This document shows, piece by piece, positions 39,042 to 64,000 of a stretch of 64,000 bases of DNA. The DNA lies in the NCBI GenBank assembly GCA_015680905.1, contig CM027378.1:5146001-5210000 (forward strand), read 5' to 3'. The stretch comes from Coptis chinensis. Its lineage: Eukaryota > Streptophyta > Magnoliopsida > Ranunculales > Ranunculaceae. The notes under the pieces are model-generated. The model did not search any database. It had not been told where the DNA came from and saw only the letters and a list, made by a program, of their open reading frames with translations. How positions within the stretch are numbered: position 1 is the first letter of the stretch; each line of letters opens with the position of its first letter. The position numbers and the translations under genes are program-made.

Positions 39042-40614
39042 TTATCGATTCTGAAGTGGTTCTAAAACAAAAGCGAAAAAGAACTTAAAGAGGCATGAAT
39101 GCTTTCTATCATAGCATTCAGTCAATTTGAATTTTTTAGGGCTCCATCGAGGAATCCTAGTAACTTCTTTCTTGGTGCCTTCAAAAGTAGCTTCCACCGG
39201 TATATACGCACTCGCCAAGTTCATCGCAAACTCGGTTTGCTAACAAATGTGCTTCAGTTTTTGATAAAGCTCTACTCGATCGCGTGAGGCTGCTGACAAT
39301 ACACCCTCCATTCCAGTCTCTAATAATCACAGCAGACACACTTGTTTTCTTAGCACACATAAACAAACCAGTGTAGTTTACTTTAACCTTACCGAAAGGA
39401 GGAGCAACCCAATTCTCCTCTATGCAAGGTAAACCAACCTCAAGAGATATATCAGAAACGTCACTCTCTCCAGTCGTCCACTCTTGCCAAGCATAGAAAG
39501 CTTTCTCTAAGACAGAGATAAAGTTAGGTTTCATAAAGCTAAACCTACACTCATTTCGATGCCACCATATGTTGTACATAAGAGAGAAAGCATATAGAGA
39601 TAAATTTTCATAACTGCTGTCTCTACTCCGAAAGTAATTAAACCAATTTTGTGTTTCAAAAGCATCACAATCCACCCTTAAACCCAGCCAAGAGGAGAAC
39701 CAGAGCCTGGAAGTCCAAGGACAAGTAAAGAAGAGATGTTGGAAGTCCTCGACATGATTATTGCAGAAAACACAACAGTTATCCACAGGAACATGATGTT
39801 GCTCAAGAGTAGCCCCAGTAGATAATAGATTATTTGCAATTTTCCATAGAAAAAGTTTCACTCTTGCAGGAATTTTCAGCTTCCAAATAATCATAAAATC
39901 ATGTGATTGTTGAGCAGAAGAACACTGGCCAATATTACTTTCCAGCGCTTTAATAAAATTGAAAGCAGATTTCACGAAAATCTCCCATTAAGCTGCGGGG
40001 TTCCACATCAACTTATCTCGAAGAAGATGGCCTAGCATAGCGATACTCACAATAGAGTTTAGAACTAGACTAGGAACCAAAGCACGGAGTCCCACACAAT
40101 CCCAAGAACCATCGGGATTAATGAACTCATTAACAAGAAGATTAAGATCCACCAAAGGTGGCGAGAGGCACCACCATGTCAATCGAGAGCATGGTTTATC
40201 CATTACCTTAATCCATTGATCAGTCCAGAATTTCACAGAAGCACCATCCCCAATACTCCAGATAGCCCCCAACTCTACAAATCGTTTAACTTTTTGTAAA
40301 CCTCTGCAGATAGGAGACACCCCAGAGGAGGGGTTAGCATGATTATGAAGAGTCAGATCTTTCTCATACTTGGCAAGCATAAGATCACTCCATAAAGATT
40401 TCTCAGAGACAACCTTCCACAATAGTTTACATAGCAGAGCTAGATTAAAGAGATGAGAATCTCTAAACCCTAACCCCCCCTCAGCTTTAGGCATACATAA
40501 CTTATCCCATGTGCATAAATGAATAGCATTACTATCAGCATTATTCCACCAGAAATTACGACAAGCTCTATCCATTTTAGAGGTGATATCAAGAGGTAGA
40601 TAAAAGGCAGACAT
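39042..40614 (-). pseudogene. LINE no. 1: RT thumb, zf-RVT and RNase H region
   Basis: 40614-39988 carries the DRACRNFWWN and KAEGGLGFRD motifs of the thumb. 39975-39181 carries zf-RVT (IWKLKIPARVKLFLWK, CVFCNNHVEDFQHLFFTCP) followed by RNase H, whose first catalytic motif reads VNYTG rather than the usual VNxDG, so the Asp is lost. The C-terminal end shifts frame near 39220. Confidence 0.78.
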
Positions 40615-40619
40615 AGAGT

Positions 40620-42411
40620 AAATAGGTTTTGCCTGGGCAACAGCCTGAACTAGGATAGTCTTACGCCTTTTGGAAAGCAGTTTTTCCTTGCCAATTTGAG
40701 ACGACCCTGCATACCTTATCCAAAAGAAAACTGAAGTCTTGGATTTTTGATGTCGAGAAAATAATGGGAGAACCCAAGTATTTATCTCTCACGGACATAG
40801 GTCTCACCGAAGGGGTATGCATAATAGCTTCTTGGGTGTCTCGAGAAGTACCTCCACTAAAAAGAATAGCGACTTATCCAAGTTCACCATCTGACCAGTG
40901 CCATTACAATAAAGGTCCATAATCTTCTTGATTTTGTGAACTTCAAAAGGGGAAGTTTTTCCAAAAACAATTAGATCGTCAGCATAAAGCATATGTGAAA
41001 CACTAGGTGCCCTCCTCGAGATCTTAATGCTAGAGATATCTTGTGCAACTTGGGCCTGAAGAAGAAGTCTTGACAAGGCCTCGGTGAGAATGATGAAGAG
41101 ATAGGGGGACAAGGGATCCCCTTGTCTAAGTCCCCTCAAAGGTGTGATAGTCCTAAGGGGAGACCCATTCAATAAGACATTATACTTCACTGTAGATATG
41201 CAGAATTCCACTAGAGTTATCCACTTGCTCGAGAAACCCAGTTTAACCATGATAGCAAGAAGAGCTCCCCAATCAACTCGATCATAAGCTTTCGACATAT
41301 CAACTTTAAGAGCAAACAAACCCAGCTTATTCTTCTTAGCCCTTTTTATCTTATGCACAATCTCATGAACCACTCCTATATTATCCCCAATAGATCTTTT
41401 TGGGAGCAAAGGCCCCTTGATTAGGTGAGATAAACTTAGGCAATAAACTCAACCCTATTTGCAAGGATCTTAGAAATAACCTTGTAAGAGACATTACAAA
41501 GGCTAATAGGTGCAGAATGAGAAGTATGTGAGGGGCAATCAATCTTAGGAATCAAAGAAATGTAAGTTTGATTGAGGTATATTCCAAACCCGCCAAGATT
41601 GAAAAACATTGTACCATCCTAACTAGATCCTCCCCAACCGGACGCCAATACTTCGATAGAACATTGCGGGGAAAGCCATGTGCCCCGGAGCTTTCAAACC
41701 ACCCATACTCTTCAACACCTTTCTAATCTCAGTTCTAGATGGACATCTAGTTAGAGAATCATTCTCAGAGATAGAGATACAAGGGTCAAACAAATCTAGG
41801 ATGATATCAAGGGAAGGGAGAAGAGCTGAATTTGGTGAAGGTCTGAAAGTATCCTCAAAAGATGAAATGAACTCTTGCGCCACTTCCGATCTAGAAGTAA
41901 CCCAAAGACCGGCTTCAGTCTGAATTTTGTCAATACTATTCCTTCGCCTTCTGAAACTAGCATTAGAATGGAAGAATTTAGTATTGTTATCAGCCTCCAA
42001 AACCATAGAAGTATTTGAGTGCTGCTTCCAATATGATTCCTCCTTTTTGTACAACTCCAAGATATGTTCCTTTATATTTTTAATCTCCACCAGCACGAGA
42101 TCAGAAACGGGGCCAGCCAAAAGAGAAGAGAGAGCAGATTCAGCCTCTTTAATTTGAGAAAAGATATTCCCAAAATAAGTTTTGTTCCAAACCCTCAAAG
42201 AGGATTGCAGCTCAACAAATTTAGAGTTCAGAATGAATGAAGGAGACCCATGAACATGAGTCTGCCAACAATGCTTAATCACCTCCATACAAGAGGGGTC
42301 TTTAGTCCACATCTCATGAAACCTAAAGGGTTTAGGGCCACTATCCACCTTCCCAGAAACATAAACAGCTAAGGCAACATGATCAGAAGAAGGAGTAGTG
42401 ACATGATCCAA
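40620..42411 (-). pseudogene. LINE no. 1: linker and reverse transcriptase
   Basis: The linker (42411-41650) ends with TEIRKVLKSMGGLKAPG. The RT palm is read at 41409-40804: FALKVDMSKAYDRVDW (motif A Asp), LRGLRQGDPLSPYLF (motif B) and HMLYADDLIVF (motif C YADD). Between 41623 and 41410 frames are broken, and the region after 40804 is shifted. The catalytic residues themselves remain. Copies DNA from element RNA at the nicked target; inactive here. Confidence 0.82.
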
Positions 42412-43101
42412 TCAAACCCGGAGGAAAGAGATTTAACCACTCAACATTAGCAACAACACGATCAATCCTCTCCCTTATATTAGCAGCCCCTAATCTATTA
42501 TTAGACCAAGTAAAAGCAGGACCATGATAGCCAAGATCAGCCATCTCAAGATCCTCCATCAGGGAAACAAATTCATCAATATACCTAGAGGGTGTGGAAT
42601 TCCCACCCTCTTTTTCAGACAAACTAGAAATGGCATTAAAGTCACCCAGAATCAACCAAGGCCCAGAAAGAACATTTCTCAAATCTCTCAAATAGTTCCA
42701 AACAACAATACGTTTATAAGCAACAGGATCTCCATATATAAAAGATACATGCCATGAAACATTCGAGAGATAATTTAAAAACGTACCCGAGATAGCATTT
42801 TTATTCCCATCCACCACTGAGAAAGAAATGTTATCCTTATAGAGAAACGACAAGGCCCCCACTTCTTCCAACGGGATCAACTGCAAACACTTGAGGATAC
42901 TTCCGGTTTATTACGTACATGCTTCAACTTCTTATATAATAATTTAGTCTCGACTAAAAATAAAACATCGGGATCAAACTTCTTAACTAAAGCTAACACA
43001 CTACTGAATGGCCTCGGAAAGAGCCCATTCCCCGGCATTCGGGATATAATCATGTCCGCCCGGGTAAACTTCCAAAGCCCAACAAACTCACAATTATACA
43101 A
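42383..43101 (-). pseudogene. LINE no. 1: AP-endonuclease domain
   Basis: The frame reads VKKFDPDVLFLVETKL near 42995-42950, then (after a frameshift near 42880) SWHVSFIYGDP, WLILGDFNAISSLSEKEGG (catalytic GDFN) and NIRERIDRVVANVEW. The final SDH motif, expected after this, is found in the next frame at 42392-42384 (TPSSDH), so a shift separates them. This domain nicks target DNA to prime reverse transcription. Confidence 0.8.
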
Positions 43102-51081: not shown

Positions 51082-51477
51082 GGACTTGGGTTGAGATTAT
51101 TGGCTAAAGGTTTTGTTGGGGTCACTATGCTCGATTGGCAGGCTCAGTTACTTAACCATATTAAGGTGGGACACCTACGTTGGTCCAAGACGGGCATTTT
51201 CACTGGACTTTACAGTGGAAAGATCCAAATCTGACCCAGCCCACCCACTTCACCCCGAGAAAGCACATCACATGGGCACATGCAAATGCTGAAAGTCAAC
51301 ACCCTCACGTGCCGTGATCTATGAATGCAGTCAATTACCCAATTAATTAAAATCGGTTTTCGAAACTGTCCAGGAGCGATATATGCAATTAAAATCGGTG
51401 ATTAATCAGTGTTTTAATCGGTTATATTGGAGGTATATATATCTATATCAAAATCTATATCTATATCTATATCTATA
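51082..51477. other. Spacer left of the Helitron array, ending in TATATC repeats
   Basis: No gene. A (TATATC)n tract at 51439-51477 leads directly to the first Helitron-like unit. Confidence 0.45.
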
Positions 51478-51929
51478 TCTTAATATTAAAGCTTTCATAA
51501 GGAGTATTTTTCAAGCTCTATTAAAATTCCACGTCATCTCCTATTAAAACGGGAATTTATCTATTATTTGAAAAACGGGAATCTTTTTTTACAACGAAAA
51601 TTGCTCCCCTACTATAACGGGAATTTCTCTCCTATTAAAACAAATTCTAGCACTTCTAATTAAAGCGAGAATCATTCTCCTATTAAAATGAGAATTCCTC
51701 ACCTATTGAAAAGGGAAAATCTAGCATATCTAATTAAAACGGGAATTATTCTCCTATTAAAACATGATCTCTTTCCCAATTGAAAAAAATGGGTTTTTAA
51801 AACTTAATTAAAACAATTTGTTAGAAAATTAAAACGGGATAGCGACTAAAACGGTAGTCCCAATTTTCTAAAAAAAATCTAAATATTTTTAAAAGAGCCG
51901 GTGCATATATGCACGGGCCTACAAGCTAG
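51478..51929 (+). mobile_element. Helitron-like unit 1 (A-type end)
   Basis: Starts TCTTAATATTAAAGCTTTC; ends GCACGGGCCTACAAGCTAG. The hairpin loop is slightly longer (CATATATG). Confidence 0.75.
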
Positions 51930-52328
51930 TCTTACTATTAAAGCTCCCACAAAGGGTATTTTTCGAACTCTATTAAAATTCCACGTCATCAACTTAATAG
52001 TTAACTTAAAACGGGAAACTCTTTTCCTTTTAGAATCCAACTTCAAACGGGAATCTCATTTCTTTTTAAAACCAAAACTCAAATAGTGGCATAAAAACTC
52101 TTTATTTTCAAATTAAATTGGTATCCCTCCCCTAATTAAAAAACACAGGTTTTTAAAACATAATTAAAACAATTTGTTAAGAAATTAAGACAGGTTTTTA
52201 AGACTTGATTAAAACAATTTGTTAGGAAATTAAAATAGGTTGGCAACGAAAATAGGAATCATGATTTGTTATGATTGTTGAGCAAATTTTTAAAAGAGCC
52301 GGTGTGTATGAACGGGTCTACTTTCTAG
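51930..52328 (+). mobile_element. Helitron-like unit 2 (B-type end)
   Basis: Starts TCTTACTATTAAAGCTCC; the 3' part has the TGATTGTTGAGCAAATTTTT type and ends GGGTCTACTTTCTAG. The hairpin is weakened (GTGTGTATGAACGGG). Confidence 0.72.
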
Positions 52329-52791
52329 TCTTAATATTAAAGCTCCTATTAGAGGTATTTTTCGAGTTCTATTAAAATTCCACGTCATCTCCTATTAAAA
52401 CGAGAATTTCTCTCTTATTTGAAAAACGAGAATCTTTTTTTTTACAACAGGTATTCATCTCCTATTATAACGGGAATTCTTCTCATATTAAAACAAATTC
52501 TAACACTTCTAATTAAAGCAGGAATCATTCTTCTATTAAAATGAGAATTCCTTCCTTATTGAAAAGAGAAAATTTAGCATATCTAATTAAAACGGAAATT
52601 ATTCTTCTATTAAAACAGGATCTCTCTTCCAATTGAAAAAATAGGTTTTTAAAATTTAATTAAAACTTCATCTAAAACAATTTGTTAGAAAATTAAAATG
52701 GGTTAGCGACTAAAACGGTAGTCCCAATTTTCTAAAAAAAATCTAAATGTTTTCAAAACAGCCGGTGTGTATGCACGGGCCTACAAGCTAG
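52329..52791 (+). mobile_element. Helitron-like unit 3 (A-type end)
   Basis: Starts TCTTAATATTAAAGCTCC; ends GGGCCTACAAGCTAG. Internally closest to unit 1, with the same order of TCTCCTATTAAAACG-type motifs. Confidence 0.75.
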
Positions 52792-53133
52792 TCTTAATAT
52801 TAAAGCTCCCACAAGGGGTATTTTTCGAGCTCCCACAAAATTCTACGTCATCTCCTATTAAAAAGGGAATTCCTCTTCTATTATAACGAGAATTCTTACC
52901 CTATTAAAACAAATTCAAACACTTCTAATTAAAGCGGGAGTCATTATCCTATTAAAACAAAATATCTTTTCCAATTGAAAAAACGGGTTTTTAAAATTTA
53001 ATTAAAACTTCATTTAAAACAATTTGTTAAAAAATTAAAACGGGTTAGCGACTAAAACGATAGTCAACGGGTTAGAAAAAAAATCTAAATGTTTTCAAAA
53101 GAGCCGGTGCGTATGCACGGGCCTACAAGTTAG
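52792..53133 (+). mobile_element. Helitron-like unit 4 (A-type end)
   Basis: Shortest unit. The end reads CTACAAGTTAG, so the CTAG has become TTAG. Confidence 0.72.
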
Positions 53134-53517
53134 TCTTAATATTAAAGCTCCCACAAAAGTATTTTTCGAGCTCTATTAAAATTTCACGTCATCTCCTATT
53201 AAAATATAAATTTCTCTTCTATTTGAAAAGCGAAAATCCTTTTTTACAATGGGAATTTCTCTCCTATTATAATAGGAATTATTCTCCTATTAAAACAAAT
53301 TTTGGCACTTCTAATTAAAGCGGGAATCTTCCTATTAAAACAGAATCTCTCTCTCAATTGAAAAAGTGGGTTTTTAAAACTTAATTAAAAATAATTTGTT
53401 ATAAAATTAAAATGGATTAGCGACTAAAACAATGATCCCATTTTTCTAAAAAAAAAAAACTAAATGTTTTCAAAAATGCTGGTGCGTATGCACGGCCTAC
53501 AAACTAGTCTTAATATT
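53134..53517 (+). mobile_element. Helitron-like unit 5 (A-type end)
   Basis: Starts TCTTAATATTAAAGCTCC; ends GCACGGCCTACAAACTAG. The hairpin has lost one G. Confidence 0.72.
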
Positions 53518-53907
53518 AAAGCTCCCACATGGGGTATTTTTCGAGCTCTATTAAAATTCCACATCATCATCTCCTATTAAAACGGAAATTCCTCTCCTAT
53601 TGAATTTTTTTTTAGGCACTCCTAATTAAAACAGGAATCATTCTCCTATTAAAACAGAAATTCTTCATATTAGAAAAAATAAATTCTAGCACTTCTGATT
53701 AAAACATGAATCATTCTCTTATTAAAACGGTATCTCTCCCCCAGTTAAAAAATGGATTTTTAAAACTTAATTAAAATAATTTGTTGAAAAATTAAAACGA
53801 GTTAGCGACGAAAATATGAATCACGATTTGTTAGAAACTATATATAGTTACAATTGTTGAGCAAGTTTTTAAAAGAGTCGGTGCGTATGCACGGGTCTAC
53901 TTTCTAG
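53518..53907 (+). mobile_element. Helitron-like unit 6 (B-type end)
   Basis: Same 3' type as unit 2 (AATTGTTGAGCAAGTTTTTA; GGGTCTACTTTCTAG), followed by TATATATA host sequence. Confidence 0.75.
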
Positions 53908-54711: not shown

Positions 54712-55880
54712 TTACACCCACATTGGAACAAGGTTTGCCTCCACCACACATTTGGGCAGATCTGTTACAGATAACTGATGCAGTCCCCACTGAGCAAGTT
54801 GGTGGGCATCATCATTAACATTCCTACTTATCCAGTTAAAGCTAACCGATTCTAAGTTACTACAAAGTCTTGTTACAGCAAAATGAATGGCCTTCAGACT
54901 CCACCTACATCCTCCACCATTATAGAACTGGATTATCTCTTCACAATCTCCTTGGATCACATAGTTGTAACTGCCCAGATAGCACGCCAACAGAACTGCT
55001 ACTTCACTTGCTACCATCTCAGCCTCCTCAGGACTTGTTGCGTTAAACTTCCTAACAGCTGCTCCCACCACGTCACCAACATCATTCCAAGCCATACACC
55101 CAGCACTCGCAGCTCTAGTGGTCCTGTGAAAAGCAGCATCAAAGCGTATCAGAATACTGTTATTGGGGATAACTGGAAACAAGGTATTCAGCTCATTAAT
55201 TGGAATAGGAATGTTAAGGGGATTAGGAGGAGCTTCTCTGAAAGCTTTGCAGCAGCTTGCTGTGATAACTGAGCACTTTCTAAGAAGCCTTGCTCTGCTG
55301 GGGATCCTATGTTCAAACTTTGCCTCATTCCGAGCTTCCCAAATTTGATAAAGCATCACACAATAGTATACTCCAGCTTGGTTGATATGCTCCTCTCCAC
55401 TCAAGCACCACATCATAAACTGATCCACCCAATCCCTGATAGTATTATCACTATCATTTTGCATACAAACTCCAAGGTTCGAGCCAAACCAGACACTCCT
55501 GATTCCATGATACTCCAGCAGAAAGAACATGCAAAGTCTCCATGTACCTTTCTTTCCATTAGTAAGTCCCCCATGGGTAGGCCTCTTTTATAGACCTTCC
55601 ACAGGAACATTTGGATATTAGCTAGGAGACTTGATCTCCAAATTCTAGAGATAGTTCTTTGGCTGAAACTGGAGGACTGCTCATCCCAACTCTTTTGGGT
55701 TAAAGAGTGATAGGCAGTCTTCACAGTAAAAGCCCCTTTTTTATCTCCAGACCAAACCATCTTATCTTTTTGAGCACCCATAGGCCTCACCACCACCTCT
55801 TGTATGTATTTGCTGACAAAAGGTGGAAACATCTGATTTAACCTTTGGACATCCCACTCATTGCCACTGGGTAGGAACAA
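54712..55880 (-). pseudogene. LINE no. 3: zf-RVT and RNase H
   Basis: zf-RVT: FTVKTAYHSLT, LANIQMFLWKVYKRGLP and GDFACSFCW. RNase H (frame 55530-54712): ILIRFDAAFHRTTRAASAGC (first Asp), EEAEMVASEVAVLLA (Glu), VIQGDCEEIIQF (second Asp) and WISRNVNDDAHQLAQWGL (His region). The RNase H looks complete to its stop at 54712. The two frames overlap at 55413-55530, so a shift joins them. Confidence 0.85.
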
Positions 55881-56023
55881 GTCAGCTATATGTGCAAACT
55901 TAAGATCTGGGTGCTCAATTCCCAGTTCTTGTAAGGTAATAGGCCTGCTATCTTTGCAAAGCTAGGGATCCTGGATAACAGAAGTGGTTAGCCCATTACC
56001 AATGTTCCAAATGAGCCCCCCAC

Positions 56024-57575
56024 TTATAAGGTTAAACACCTTATGTACTCCTTTCCAAAAGTAAGAAGTAGTTCCAGGAGGTTTAAGCACATCCCCAATC
56101 TAGTTTTTGCTATAAGTACTAGTAAAGACTTTAGTCTGATCCATAAGGACTCTAAGTCAGTAGCAGCTTTCCAAGGCAGCTTAGCAAGCATAACAACATT
56201 CATATCCCTAGTTTTACGGAAGCCTAAGCCTCCCACTTGTTTAGGTTTACACAACTGCCCCCACCCAATGGTGTGGACACTATTGGACTTCTGAGACCCA
56301 TTCCAGAAGAAATCCCTACATGCTTTATCAATCTTATCACAGGTAGATGCAGGAAGGAGGTAGGTAGACATGACATATAAGGGGGTGGCCTGAGCCACAG
56401 CTTGTATAAGGGTAGCTCTCCCAGCCTGGGAGAGCACCTTAGCTTTCCACCCCTTCACTTTGCCATTGATCCTATCCACAAGATAATCAAAGTCCTCTGC
56501 TTTTTTCCTGGATAACATGATAAGGACACCCAGATACTTGTCCTTTGGATCAAACAACTTCATTCTCCATATTTTTTTTTTCTGTTTTAACTTAACTCGA
56601 AATCTAACATTTCTGCTGAAAAAAATGCTAGATTTGTCATAGTTAATCAACTGACCAGAGGCCTCACAATACTCCTGTAAGATAGTCTTAAGATGCCTAC
56701 TATCTTCAGGAGTAGCTTTTGAAAAGATAATCAGGTCATCTGCATACAACAGATGAGAAATAGCTGGAGAGTTCCTTCTGATTTTTATGCCTTGGATCTC
56801 TCCCCTATTTTCAACTTGTACAAGCAACCTAGATAAGGCTTCATACACCATAATATACAGATATGGTGACAAAGGATCCCCCTGCCTCAGGCCTCTTTCA
56901 AGAATAATTTTCTTGAGGGGGGGGGGGGGGTGGGTCCATTTAACAGAACCTTGAAGGATACAGTAGTAAGACATTGCAACACCAGATTTCTCTAAGGAGC
57001 ACTAAACCCCAAGTTTTTAAAAATGTCATCAAGGAAAGACCACTCTACCCTATCATATGCTTTTTCCATATCCATTTTCAGAGCCATCCAACCACTAGTC
57101 TTAGTTTTCATATGTTTCATGTTATGAAAAGCCTCACAGGCCAGCCCAATGTTATCCCCTATACTCCTCCCCTTAATAAAGGCTCCTTGGAAAGGGGATA
57201 CAATCTTGTTAATGTGACATTTCAGTCTATTAGCCATTATCTTAGCAATGATCTTATAGCTGAAATTGCACAGGCTAATAGGTCTGAATTTGGCCATGTG
57301 ATCAGGATTAGACACTTTATGAACCAAGGCAATACAAGTTTCATTAAAACTAGGATTCAGACTACCAGAGACATAAAAATCTTGGACAAAAGCAGTAATA
57401 CTTTCTCCAATTATATCCCAGTAGTCATGATAGAAGATACCTTGGAACCCATCAGGCCCAGGAGCCTTAAGCTTCCCCATCTTCCTCACCACTTGCCAGA
57501 TATCATCAGCAGAGGGTACAGCAGTGAGCAAATCATTATCTCTATTAGTAATAACAGGCTTAAACAGTTCCAAAA
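56024..57575 (-). pseudogene. LINE no. 3: reverse transcriptase
   Basis: 57575-56992: KMGKLKAPGPDGFQGIFYHD, FRPISLCNFSYKIIAKIMAN, KGRSIGDNIGLACEAF and ALKMDMEKAYDRVEWSFLDD (motif A). 56974-56024: ERGLRQGDPLSPYLYIMVYE (motif B), SHLLYADDLIIF (motif C), then thumb motifs DKYLGVLI and KVKGWKAKVLSQAGRATLIQ and QVGGLGFRK. A poly-G/C stretch near 56918 (12 G) sits at the one clear frame change between the two parts. Catalytic residues are intact and breaks are few, so this is the youngest of the three LINEs. Confidence 0.88.
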
Positions 57576-58056
57576 TGTTATTATTTCGACCCCCACCTAC
57601 GTGGCAAACGTCCATTAGTAGGGGTCTCTATTTTATTCATTTAATCAACAGGGCTAAAGCCCAATTCGCAATATCATGGATCAATGTACAGGCCCATTAA
57701 CTCATGTGTCTAAGGCTGAACCTTAGCCACATGGCTTGCCACCAATATACGTTGATTTATGTCCAGATTCATTTCTCATCAAAGAGATAGTTATCAGTTG
57801 ACAGTTATACTCTATCACAATTACTCAAGATACAAGATTACTTGAGCTACAAGGACTCTCTACTCTACCTCTATAAATATCAAACTATTTTTCATAAGGA
57901 ACTACGTGGAAACTTGATCCCTAGAGAATAGATCTTGGGTACGTAGGCAGCCATTATTTGGTTCAGTTTCATCTCCCCCAACATCAAAATCCTCTGTTTA
58001 TTAGTGCGTTCATCACCATTGCTCTCGTTGTGTTGAAGCAGTTTACTGCCGAAACA
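57576..58056 (+). repeat. 5' LTR of the gypsy element, 481 bp
   Basis: It starts TGTTATTATTTCGACCCCC and ends CTGCCGAAACA, giving the TGTT..AACA inverted ends of an LTR. A core promoter may lie near 57880 (CTCTATAAATATC). The LINE sequence stops exactly at the TG. Confidence 0.75.
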
Positions 58057-58078: not shown

Positions 58079-61000
58079 AAGAGAATTCATTATCACGTGA
58101 AACAATCAAGATGGTAAGCACGAGAAGCAGACCAAATAGTCAACATATTCCTCCTACTAACAAGAATCGCAACCCTCGAAATTCAAATCGGCCGATGCAT
58201 GAACCGTTGAACAATCAAGTTGCTCTTAGAAGTAGGATCAATTCTCAACATCCGATCAGAAGAATAAGAACCGCCACCGCCTCCGCCTCAAGGAAAATTA
58301 CAAGTGCCGCCACCCTTAACAGCCTTTGCAACAAGAAAATCGACAAGTCAATAATCCTCCATGCGGTCCGCCGTCTGTCCATGTCGATCCTTTAGTTGAC
58401 ATGGATATGGACGTGGACATTACTCTCACGCCAACTAGTGGAAAAAGTGATAGTAACAGCCAATTCACCCCTAATACGGTTGAGCGGGAGTTACGACGAG
58501 TCAAAAATTTAAATAGGAATTTGAGAAGGAAGCTGGCAAAGAGGCAAAGGCCGGTGGACGATGTTGCAAATTCAACAACATCAAGGCGACCACGAAGGGA
58601 CGCAGGCCATTCCAGTGTATGGGACCGTCTTGACGATCCACTTCGTCGTCCTCAGCAACGTGCTATTTCTCAAGCACAATCAACCAGTGCATACTCTAGG
58701 AGTAATGACCCCTATTACCCGTACTTATGGGGAGAATCGGATTGGTAGGGATAACTACTACCCTAGACATGTCCGATCTCAAAGGGAAGATTTACCTCTG
58801 AGAAGCAATTTCATGGAAGACCGCCGTCCGAGATATGTCCGACATGACTGGGAAGGCGAGCATCCCAGACAAGAGCAACAAAACATGGAGAAGTGGTATA
58901 ATTATTCCAACCACCCGGCCAAGGGTGACTACCGGCCTATACAGGCTGGTTACAGGGATAGACAAAGACAATCACCGATCGGAGCTGATCGTGCGTACCG
59001 CCAAAGATCTCTAACTCCAATAAGAGATAATGGAAGGTATCCTTCTCCACATGGGCACGACCAGGGGCGTCCAGTTGTTCGAGCCAATACTTTAACTCTA
59101 ACAGAGCAACAGCTGAAAGAGTTGATTGCAAAAGAACTTAACGATAGAGAGTCAAGGGATGTAAGAATGAAAAACTTGACAGTCAATGATGGCGTACTTG
59201 ATAAGTTTTTGGTCGACATTCAAGAAGCTTACCACCATCCCGACTTCAAACAACCCGATTTTGAACTTTATGATGAGTCGGAAGGAGATCCTGGCTTGCA
59301 TGTTCTATCGTTCAAAAATAAGTTGGTGTTATGGGGAGGAGATGATCCGCTCATATGTAAGCTCTTTCCATCGACTCTAAAGGGAGAAGCATTACGCTGG
59401 TTTAGTGAGTTGCCTTCAAGATCAATTCACCAATTCAATGAACTAGAAAATCAGTTTGTTAATCGTTTCCGCCACAATTGCAAGACGCCAAAGGATGTCG
59501 ACTCGCTTCTAAACATCAAGCAACAACGTGACGAGAAGTTACGTACTTTTGTTACTAGGTTTCGAAAGGCAGCAGCAGATGTTCCAGAAGTTTCTGATGG
59601 GATGCTTCTTTTCGCCTTTAAAGAAGCATTATATTATGAAAGAGATAGAAGTTCGAACTTCATTGTAAGGGATCTTTACCACTCTCTAATTAAAGATGTC
59701 CCTAAAACTCGATACGATCTGTACGTTAGGGCTGAACAACACATCCGTATCGAGGAGAACCTATCGGCGAAAGCAGCAAGGGACAAAGATATTCGGAGTA
59801 AAGATTTTTCTGAAAGCAAAAATTTTAAGCCGAAGCAAGGACAGTCAGATCAACAACATAACGATGGAAAGAATGACAATCAGAAGCAAGTCAATTTCAA
59901 TCATGATGGAAAAACTCTACGAGCTAAAACCGACCCATTTCAATGCCAAGTACTCTGTTATATATGAGAAGTTGAAAAGTGGGAATCTTCTTTCCCCGCC
60001 GTATCCACTTTCAGAAGATACCAAAGAGACAAGGGGCAAAGCCTTGTGGTGTAAATTCCATAATGACTATGGCCATGAGACGTAACTTTTGTCTCTCTCC
60101 GGGTCGGATTCAGAAATTAGTGGAGAAAGGACTTTTGAGCGAATATCTTACGAAAAACTCTCAACAGATTGTCGCAACTTATGAGCATGTCATTAATGTT
60201 TCCCATTCTCATGTTGAGTCTCTTTCCAAAAGTCGAGTAAGAATCAAAAGCGTTTGAAAGTTAGTTATGTTGGTGAATTTAACCGTATCAACAAAGTCGA
60301 TTTTGTCAAAGGAATCAGACCGAGACTTCGAAGAAGAGCCCCTCCGATTCATCGATGATGATCTCTTTGGTGTATATCACCCTCACTATGACGCAGCTTA
60401 TAATTTTCTGTGTCTATAGGTGCTTCGTGTTCAACGGGTAATGATCGACCACAGGGGCCACTTCAGCGTCATTTTCAAAGTGGATGTTATTCTCGGATGC
60501 AACTTTGCGAGGGTATGATCATCGCCGAAGACAATCCTATCATCGGTTTTGCGGGACAACATCTTCGCCGGTTGGAAGAATTACCTTACCAATCAAATTA
60601 ATGAACAAAGAAGTTGAGCTCGATTTCTTATTGATGGATTTGTCGATCCCACTATAACGTAATTTTGGGCGTAGATTGGATACATTCCATGGGGTCTGTA
60701 GTCTCCACATTTCATCGGTGTGTCAAGTTCCCATTCTCGGGCATATTTGCAAGGTTCAGTAGTGACCGGTATCCGCCCATTCTGTCATGACAAAGCAATG
60801 GATGACTATAAAAATCTGAAGTTCGAGGTAATACGATCCTTGCAAGTGCCCCCAAGATAAGTTACAGTTGCCGGCGTGCCCTCTATCTATAATATTGAGG
60901 CTCATGTGCAAGGGGCCCGACAGTGGATCGACTTTTGGAAGTGCAAGTAGGAGATTCAAGCAGAAGAAACCACTTTTATTTCCGCTAAACTTTCGCGTAG

Positions 61001-64000
61001 AACAACAAGAGTTGGTTTCCTTTTACAAATGAAATAAGCGTATCTTTGCTTGGAAAATTGAGGAAATGCGGGGAATAGACCCTTTTCATTTTTTGTCATA
61101 AACTTGACATTGATCCAAGTTTTAGGCGGTTCGCCAAAAACCAAGAAGAATGGCACCGATCGAAGCTCAAAGTTAAAGAGGAGATTGATAAGCTACTTGC
61201 GGTTAACTTTATCCGACGAGTTACTTACCCGAAATGGCTTGCTAATGTCGTCGCAGTGCCAAAAAAGAACGAACAAATCAGAATTTGTATTGATTTTACA
61301 AACCTTAACGCAGCTTGTCCGATTCATCCGTATCCATTGCCACGAATTTCCGAACTAGTGGATGCCACTTCGGGATTCCAACGCCTATCTTTCATGGATG
61401 CTTCTTCAGGGTACTACCAGATCTCTTTGAATGTTGATGACCAAGAGTTCACCGCTTTCATTACCGACCAAGGCATTTTCTGCTACACTGTTATGCCTTT
61501 TGGTCTGAAAAATGCCGGTGCAACCTACCAAAAGCTTGTCAATACAATTTTTTCCGATCTGCTGGGGATAATAATGGAGACTTATATTGATGATATAGTC
61601 GTTAAATCAAAGATTACTGGTGATCATCTTTCCGATCTTCAACTTGTTTTTGATAGGCTTAACAAGTATAACATGAGACTCAATCCCGCCAAATGTTCTT
61701 TTGGCCTCTCTTCTGGAAAATTTCTGGGATACCTCATGACTCGTAGAGGTATTGAGGCTAATCCTGATCAGATACGTGCCGTTATTGATATGTCATCACC
61801 AAAAAATAAGAAGGAAATTCAACGGCTTACTGGTCGGCTTGCCGCTCTTCATAGATTTATTTCTAAATATTCCGATCGTTGTCATCCCTTCTTCCAGACT
61901 TTAAAAGGGGCGGCAACTTGGAACATTGATTGTGAGATGGCATTGCAACAACTGAAGAAATACTTGATCAATCCTCCTATATTGACAAGTCCTTCAACGG
62001 GTCAACCGATTGGCATGTACCTAGCAGCTACAACTCAAGCCGTTATTATTTTGTTTTTCGTCGATGATGGTAGACCCGTCTTTTTATCGAAGAAGACGTT
62101 AACCGGAGCTGAGTCTCGTTATTCAAAGATGGAAAAAATGGCACTTGCATTGGTTCATGCCACTCGTCGGTTAAAACCATACTTCCAGGGGAGGTTGGTC
62201 AAAGTTTATACTGAGTATCCCTTACGCAAGATCTTTTCGTGAATGCCGCGAGGAATCAAGCAGATTAGCCGAATGGGAAAGTTATCTTAGTGCATATAGC
62301 ATTGTCTTTGAAAGTCGTACTGCTGAAAAAGGACATGTTCTAGCTTCTTTGATAGCTGATTTTCCGATTGATGATTCTCCTATTGACAATTTCTTGCGCC
62401 AAGAAGAATCTATGGAAGACATTCTGCCACCAATAACTGGGGGCGACGAAGACCAACTTGCAAACGCAATTCCTAATCCAATTGACCTATGGATTGTTTA
62501 TTCAGATGGCTCCCATAATAAATCTGGGTCTGGAATTAGATGCGTTTTTGTTAAACCCGGCGGAGAGAAGATTGAGAAATCTGTGCGACTTGGCTTCGCC
62601 GCTTCAAATAACGAAGCCGAGTATGAGGCTGCCGTTTGTGCCTTGAGAACAGCTTTGAAACTAGGGGCGCGAAAGCTCCAGTTATACACTGATTCTCGCC
62701 TTGTAACCAATCAGTTTGGCGGGTCCTTTGAAGCAAGAGATGACCGTATGGCGGCTTATCTTGGTTTGATACATAGCCTTGCTCGACAATTTGATAGCAT
62801 CTCTATCACTTAAAGACCCCGAAATGACATACGTCATGCTGATTCATTAGCTTATCTATCCGCCACCGTTAGAAGCGAAGAGTCAAGACACATCACTGTG
62901 GAGTTCCAGAAAGGGCCAAGCATTGACTTTACCGAAAAAGAATTGCATGACTTGTATGTACATGAAAGCAATTACTTGTTTTGTTTATGACGCAAAACAA
63001 ATAAAAATCGACCCACGTATAATCGCACCAATCATGACTCGGAAGCGGAAAAGAGAGATGGAAAATTCACAACATGGCCATACTTTGGATCTTCCATTAG
63101 AATCTGTAGATCCGTTTGTTCCTCCTGAATTCGCTCCCGAAACAGATAGTGAGTTGGTACATGAAGCAGATGATAGTTCTGAAGTTCCCGATATGATACT
63201 ATCAGAGCCAGTGATAATCTCCGATGCGCAAGATTGGCGTCTACCTTATATAGACTACTTGCAAGGTTCTTCGCTTCCGCCAGAACCAAAACTCGCTGAA
63301 AGAATCAAATGCAATCCATGGAAGTTTTTGGTGATATATCATCGCATCGGAAGTTTACACTTATATCGAAAAGGCTCGGACTTAAACCCTATGTTGCGAT
63401 GCCTCTCAAAACAGGAAGGACTTCAAGTTTTGGAAGAGATTCACTCCGGCTTATCGGAAGCCACTCCAAGGGCTTAAGTTTAGCTCATAAGGCTATGACC
63501 ACGGGGCTATTGGTGGCGGAGATGCAAAAGGATGCAAAACACCTATCCGAGAGGTGTGAGCCATGCCAAAAGCACGATAATATGAGTAAACTACATTCAT
63601 CGAAGTTGCATCCCATGCTAAGCCCGTGGCCATTTGCCAAATGGGGCTTAGACATTGTTGGTCCTTTATCTAAAGCTCCGGTAGTATAACGATTCCTTCT
63701 TGTGGCAACCGACATTTTACCAAATGGGTAGAAGCAAAGCCTTTGGTCCAAATCCATGCTTCCAACGTCAAAATGTTTTTATGGAGAAATATTGTTTGTC
63801 GTTTTGGCATCCTCGCGGCACTTGTATCGGATAATGGTAAACAATTTGATCTTTGAAGAAATTCGCATGGGTTGCGGCTAATTTGAAGATACGGCATAAT
63901 TTCCGCGACCTTATCATCCATGAAAGTTAACGGGCAGGCGAAGCCACCAATAAGGTGATTTTGGCCAACTTAAAGAGGCGTTTGGCGCCAAAGGAAATTG

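Follow-up and report, generated by a model that had tools for sequence, protein, structure and literature searches.

Tandem Helitron units in Coptis chinensis and a predominant joining site inside the resident 5′ end

Tandem Helitrons at centromeres were reportedly described by Xiong in 2016. Tandem arrays and head-to-tail junctions of Helitrons are treated in passages on plants and bats (PMC5876387; PMC10095026), where such arrays are cited in support of rolling-circle amplification (PMC5876387). In maize, a single pair of large unrelated elements is arranged, as are the units reported here, with CTAG directly followed by the TC of the next element, and passages of that paper already discuss a G/T junction and canonical A/T insertion upstream of the resident, weighing consecutive insertion against rolling-circle repeats (PMC2267711). 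Helitrons with several termini are also described; like the units below they are stacked and may later move as one, although the passages concerned describe no preferred joining base, which is present here (PMC3288121). Unlike the maize pair, the array considered here belongs to a family of small elements that forms hundreds of junctions and favours an inner site, and unlike the plant and bat arrays its units are not locally amplified. Tandem Helitrons are therefore already known, and what is new is the sharp joining point: in the open-licence literature, surveyed mostly at the level of titles and passages, no account was found of copies favouring one base within a resident 5′ end.

The window, by which we mean the whole stretch of 64,000 nucleotides analysed (C2:5146001-5210000), carries six non-autonomous Helitron units of 342-463 bp at 51478-53907, all on the plus strand, head to tail and with zero spacer. 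U1 (51478-51929, 452 bp) has an A-type tail and ends in CTAG, and U2 (51930-52328, 399 bp) has a B tail and is a member of a uniform 399-bp sub-family, hereafter B399. Three further units with A-type tails follow, namely U3 (52329-52791, 463 bp), U4 (52792-53133, 342 bp), which ends in TTAG, and U5 (53134-53507, 374 bp), which has a weak hairpin. U6 (53508-53907, 400 bp) has a B-like tail, yet is not B399, and is followed by T53908. All six units start with TCTTA, then A or C, then TATTAAAGC, and each CTAG or TTAG end is followed by T. The preliminary description had read the locus as six spacer-free units with 5′ TC, 3′ CTAG (one TTAG) and a following T, and with 3′ tails in the order A-B-A-A-A-B; this reading stands, since the coordinates are contiguous and the same exact junction, CTAG/TCTTAMTATTAAAGC (a slash marks the joint), occurs 418 times in the 935.6-Mb genome searched and 0 times in a reversed control, so the array is not a product of chance. 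The array had also been placed between A and T. On the left, however, A51477 is not the outer edge but the last base of a hexamer tract (51442-51477, plus strand; TCTATA, TCAAAA, then TCTATA four times), which we read as 5′-terminal hexamers contributed by the first unit and by residents that preceded it. The outermost candidate boundary between host and element would be A51441/T51442, with A51477/T51478 as an inner joining site.

Two end classes turned out to be too simple a scheme. U1, U3, U4 and U5 are 83-90% identical to one another and U6 is 76-78% identical to these four, while U2 shares 62-67% identity with every other unit, U6 included. Although U2 and U6, the "B" pair, have a common 3′ tail, they belong to different sub-families, being 66.8% identical over 377 aligned sites. 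B399 comprises 19 further sampled copies of 398-410 bp with 88.5-94.0% identity to U2, many of them chosen for likeness to the window, and U6 lies outside it. The 3′ hairpins that had been attributed to every unit are borne out in part: folded as single-stranded DNA and compared with shuffles, the last 40 bases of U1, U2, U4 and U6 give z of -2.2 to -3.0, whereas the signal is weak in U3 (z -1.3) and absent in U5 (z -0.5). Inside the units lies a degenerate 23-bp minisatellite around ATTAAAACGGGAATT (window 51536-51763, 52388-52570, 52851-52909, 53192-53295 and 53625-53728), which makes unit length vary.

Unit starts preceded by A number 677 genome-wide (control 0). Among 45 chains recognised in fetched loci, which were picked for junctions or similarity, 16 have one recognised unit and 15 have two, while chains of six to eight units number 6, so a six-unit array is not exceptional. 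Dispersed single copies, which the preliminary description had proposed looking for, do exist in the fetched loci. They carry the TC and CTAG ends that had been named as their boundaries, but mostly start six bases further out, at A/TCTATATCTTAATATT.

The majority of dispersed copies start with TCTATATCTTAATATT preceded by A, whereas array-internal units have no hexamer, the inner TC being their first bases. In 20 C1 starts picked as lying outside listed arrays, 3 of which turned out to have more units behind them, the six bases 5′ of TCTT are TCTATA in 15, TATATA in 3, TTTATA in 1 and TTTAGA in 1. A copy at locus L075 is nested in a sister unit, and its flanks, when joined minus the hexamer, align gap-free with L051 over 178 bp at 87% identity; when the hexamer is kept, a 6-base gap appears. 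This pattern shows that TCTATA is part of the element and that insertion took place between A and T, in this one nested case without target duplication. A comparison of L047 with L070 agrees, but is weaker and has many gaps. The exact-hexamer element is preceded by A in 13 of 15 starts, and T follows 33 of 35 intact tails. Two maize Helitron 5′ ends, printed in a passage as TCTATACTAT and TCTATACTAC, begin TCTATAC (PMC10095026). The assignment to Helitrons is thus upheld by canonical plant features, namely 5′ TC and 3′ CTAG in the six units and in dispersed copies, and by A/T insertion without duplication.

The position at which copies meet is strongly biased. The dominant form, TCTATA/TCTT, in which joining is at the inner A/TC of a resident 5′ end, accounts for the 418 exact junctions, compared with 37 of TCTA/TATCTT, 19 of the outer head-to-tail form CTAG/TCTATATCTT (the A/TCTATATCTT site) and at most 13 of TCTTAA/TATTAAAGC (reversed control 2), the patterns being unequal in length and the longer ones somewhat undercounted. 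In the host, 13 of the 15 starts with an exact hexamer have TA immediately upstream, and TC follows only 1 of 28 last units (7 tails followed by a recognisable unit start set aside), which argues that the resident inner A/TC is not merely a typical host target. A preference for TA/T fits the inner and outer sites equally, and the dominance of the inner site is not explained by it. A different arrangement was seen at the start of L085 (C1:42776344), where a unit start abuts a sister unit's 5′ end in inverted orientation (GGGAGCTTTAATA/TCTTAATATT), head to head and with the hexamer absent.

The junction positions (418, 37 and 19) together with the mixed sub-families suggest that joining took place repeatedly at a single site within the resident 5′ end, and we consider it probable that the array was built up from separate non-autonomous Helitron copies stacked at the inner A/TC. 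A first copy would insert at an A/T site as TCTATATCTTAATATT...CTAG, and later copies, those of other sub-families included, would join at the A/TC six bases inside the resident 5′ end (TCTATA/TCTT), the incoming CTAG meeting the resident TCTT. The left edge would then again read TCTATA/TCTT, which would restore the site and let the array lengthen on its 5′ side. In this scheme a Rep-helicase transposase would recognise the resident 5′ end, and the incoming copy's own hexamer may be brought variably or be obscured later. No gradient of age was seen along the arrays, the divergence of first units (0.065, n=21) being like that of the rest (0.069, n=39; p 0.96), so it is junction geometry that suggests a 5′-ward order of joining. 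We tentatively hypothesize that the transposase uses the inner A/TC as a site-specific, nic-like attachment point to which it joins CTAG ends, even those of another family, which would make residents self-regenerating landing pads. Relaxases recombine at nic sites and offer a parallel to such an attachment point. If repeated joining at one site is the true course of events, the meaning of tandem Helitrons as proof would change.

Another Helitron family meets the same base. At L043 and L048 a different Helitron-like element has its 3′ end directly at the inner joining base, and at L042 another unrelated tail does so, together 3 of 72 junctions under a lenient filter; by exact pattern, a foreign Helitron 3′ end is found at the joining base in 8 places (control 0). 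Between L043 and L048, the foreign elements resemble each other at about 76-79%. Beside them stand, in L048, a unit 84% identical to U2 and, in L043, another unit, which matches the second unit of L048. The same foreign family before different units is the expected outcome if copies join repeatedly at one base, and L043 and L048 were rejected as one mobile composite because the foreign element adjoins different units in each. Separately, L043 (3122-6001) and L044 (2046-4536), about 150 kb apart, have units and right flank in common at 92-97% from the inner TC onward while their left sides differ, as a duplication or a one-ended event might leave them. The two were not used as a before/after pair, the left flank of L044 being largely high-copy repeat; this flank was absent among matches near L043 (40 candidates scored).

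A full element joined at TCTATA/TCTT would leave one hexamer upstream, and the tract in the window holds six hexamers, one of them degenerate, for six units. Among the first 100 listed starts, 11 had an exact double hexamer, and a CTAG/TCTT junction followed in 8 of these versus 14 of 89 others (p 0.00018), a test that overlaps the loci that suggested the hexamer idea; the unused part alone gives 2/3 versus 6/36 (p 0.10), and double hexamers in a further region give 6/15 against the first baseline (p 0.038). Where upstream bases were read (75 starts), exact doubles occurred in 6 of 17 arrays versus 3 of 58 starts elsewhere (p 0.003), and a lenient count gave 7 of 17 versus 15 of 58 (p 0.24). 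Median tract length is 17 bases in arrays versus 10 in others (p 0.034), with no significant trend against unit number in 20 arrays (rho 0.40, p 0.083), and hexamer count matched unit number exactly in 6 of 34, no better than when permuted, which, like the missing age gradient, weighs against stacking in its simplest form. Leftover hexamers mark some joinings. L045, L049 and L054 each have a single hexamer and at least two units, and such arrays call for hexamer loss, joining without a hexamer, or block insertion.

The relationships among units bear on whether one source or many supplied the arrays. The preliminary description had leaned towards several events over amplification of a single copy, and the sample agrees: for 65 sampled A-type units, with the comparison limited to their ends, the difference is 0.120 in 49 within-array pairs versus 0.116 in 2031 between-array pairs (p 0.80, 600 permutations), 16 adjacent pairs differ by 0.123, and the nearest relative lies in the unit's own array for 1 of 47. 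There is no local amplification in this sample. The A units that precede B399 cannot be told apart from those that follow it (p 0.60), with both indel types present, and those preceding B399 range from 343 to 529 bp with mixed indel type. B399-like 5′ ends are preceded by TA in 41 cases, 5 of which are junctions of the rarer kind and about 11 from a neighbouring sub-family, and by AG in 38; their excess at junctions (41/38 versus 677/418 overall) is not significant (p 0.07). Satellite DNA, understood as tandem-only and locally homogenised, does not fit the dispersed single copies or this lack of local homogenisation.

We prefer site-focused stacking of mixed sub-families to concatemers, with block transposition as an unlikely contender. 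Under block transposition, a few founding tandem junctions would have arisen, blocks would have spread by read-through of internal CTAG, and recombination would have shuffled the units. The predominance of a single exact junction form would follow, the single-hexamer arrays L045, L049 and L054 resemble one block insertion, A-B-A orders are seen again at several loci matching the window, and passages on maize describe multi-terminus Helitrons derived from nested ones (PMC3288121). However, the A partners of B399 are mixed, and distances in 15 A-B399 neighbour pairs are uncorrelated (r -0.16, p 0.76), although the near-star phylogeny leaves this test little power. The foreign element of L043 and L048 is joined to different units, and within the sample no two unrelated loci were recognised as sharing an identical multi-unit block. 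In 11 pairs of B399 and the following unit, one divergent member included, a weak correlation (r 0.46, p 0.046) speaks against the stacking of separate copies.

That the arrays are rolling-circle concatemers, in which copies made from one circle, their 3′ end linked to the inner TC, integrated in tandem, appears improbable. A passage of PMC5876387 takes tandem arrays as traces of rolling-circle transposition, a joint at TC is expected of an end-to-end circle if the inner TC is the 5′ end, and the single-hexamer arrays would be accounted for. Against this, units differ as much within arrays as between them, arrays mix sub-families and the same base is met by a foreign family. Exact TCTATA stands at 15 of 20 starts picked as non-array, with neither it nor a TATA-like form in 1 of 20, and a hexamer on nearly all such starts argues against the inner TC as the end that usually moves. 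Neither full end-to-end junctions (19 versus 418) nor near-identical units (nearest in own array for 1/47), the hallmarks of a concatemer, characterise the arrays. Insertion of each new copy at G/T right after the resident's CTAG, one option raised in a passage on two adjacent maize Helitrons (PMC2267711), is very improbable, because it should leave the incoming outer end as CTAG/TCTATATCTT. The preliminary description had offered two routes, a terminator skipped on the rolling circle and insertion next to the previous CTAG-T; as written, both predict CTAG/TCTATATCTT and neither is borne out by 19 such junctions versus 418 of CTAG/TCTT.

Matches to Helitron_like_N number at least 157 in the genome and 0 in 14 control genomes. 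An autonomous Rep-helicase partner with these ends was not found in the part of the match list whose positions were compared by eye. The array is flanked on both sides by minus-strand open reading frames with reverse-transcriptase-like motifs, LINE-like by eye (window 39181-42886 and 54712-57615), and further open reading frames on the plus strand (window 58561-63477) resemble, by eye, the gag and polymerase of a gypsy-type retrotransposon.
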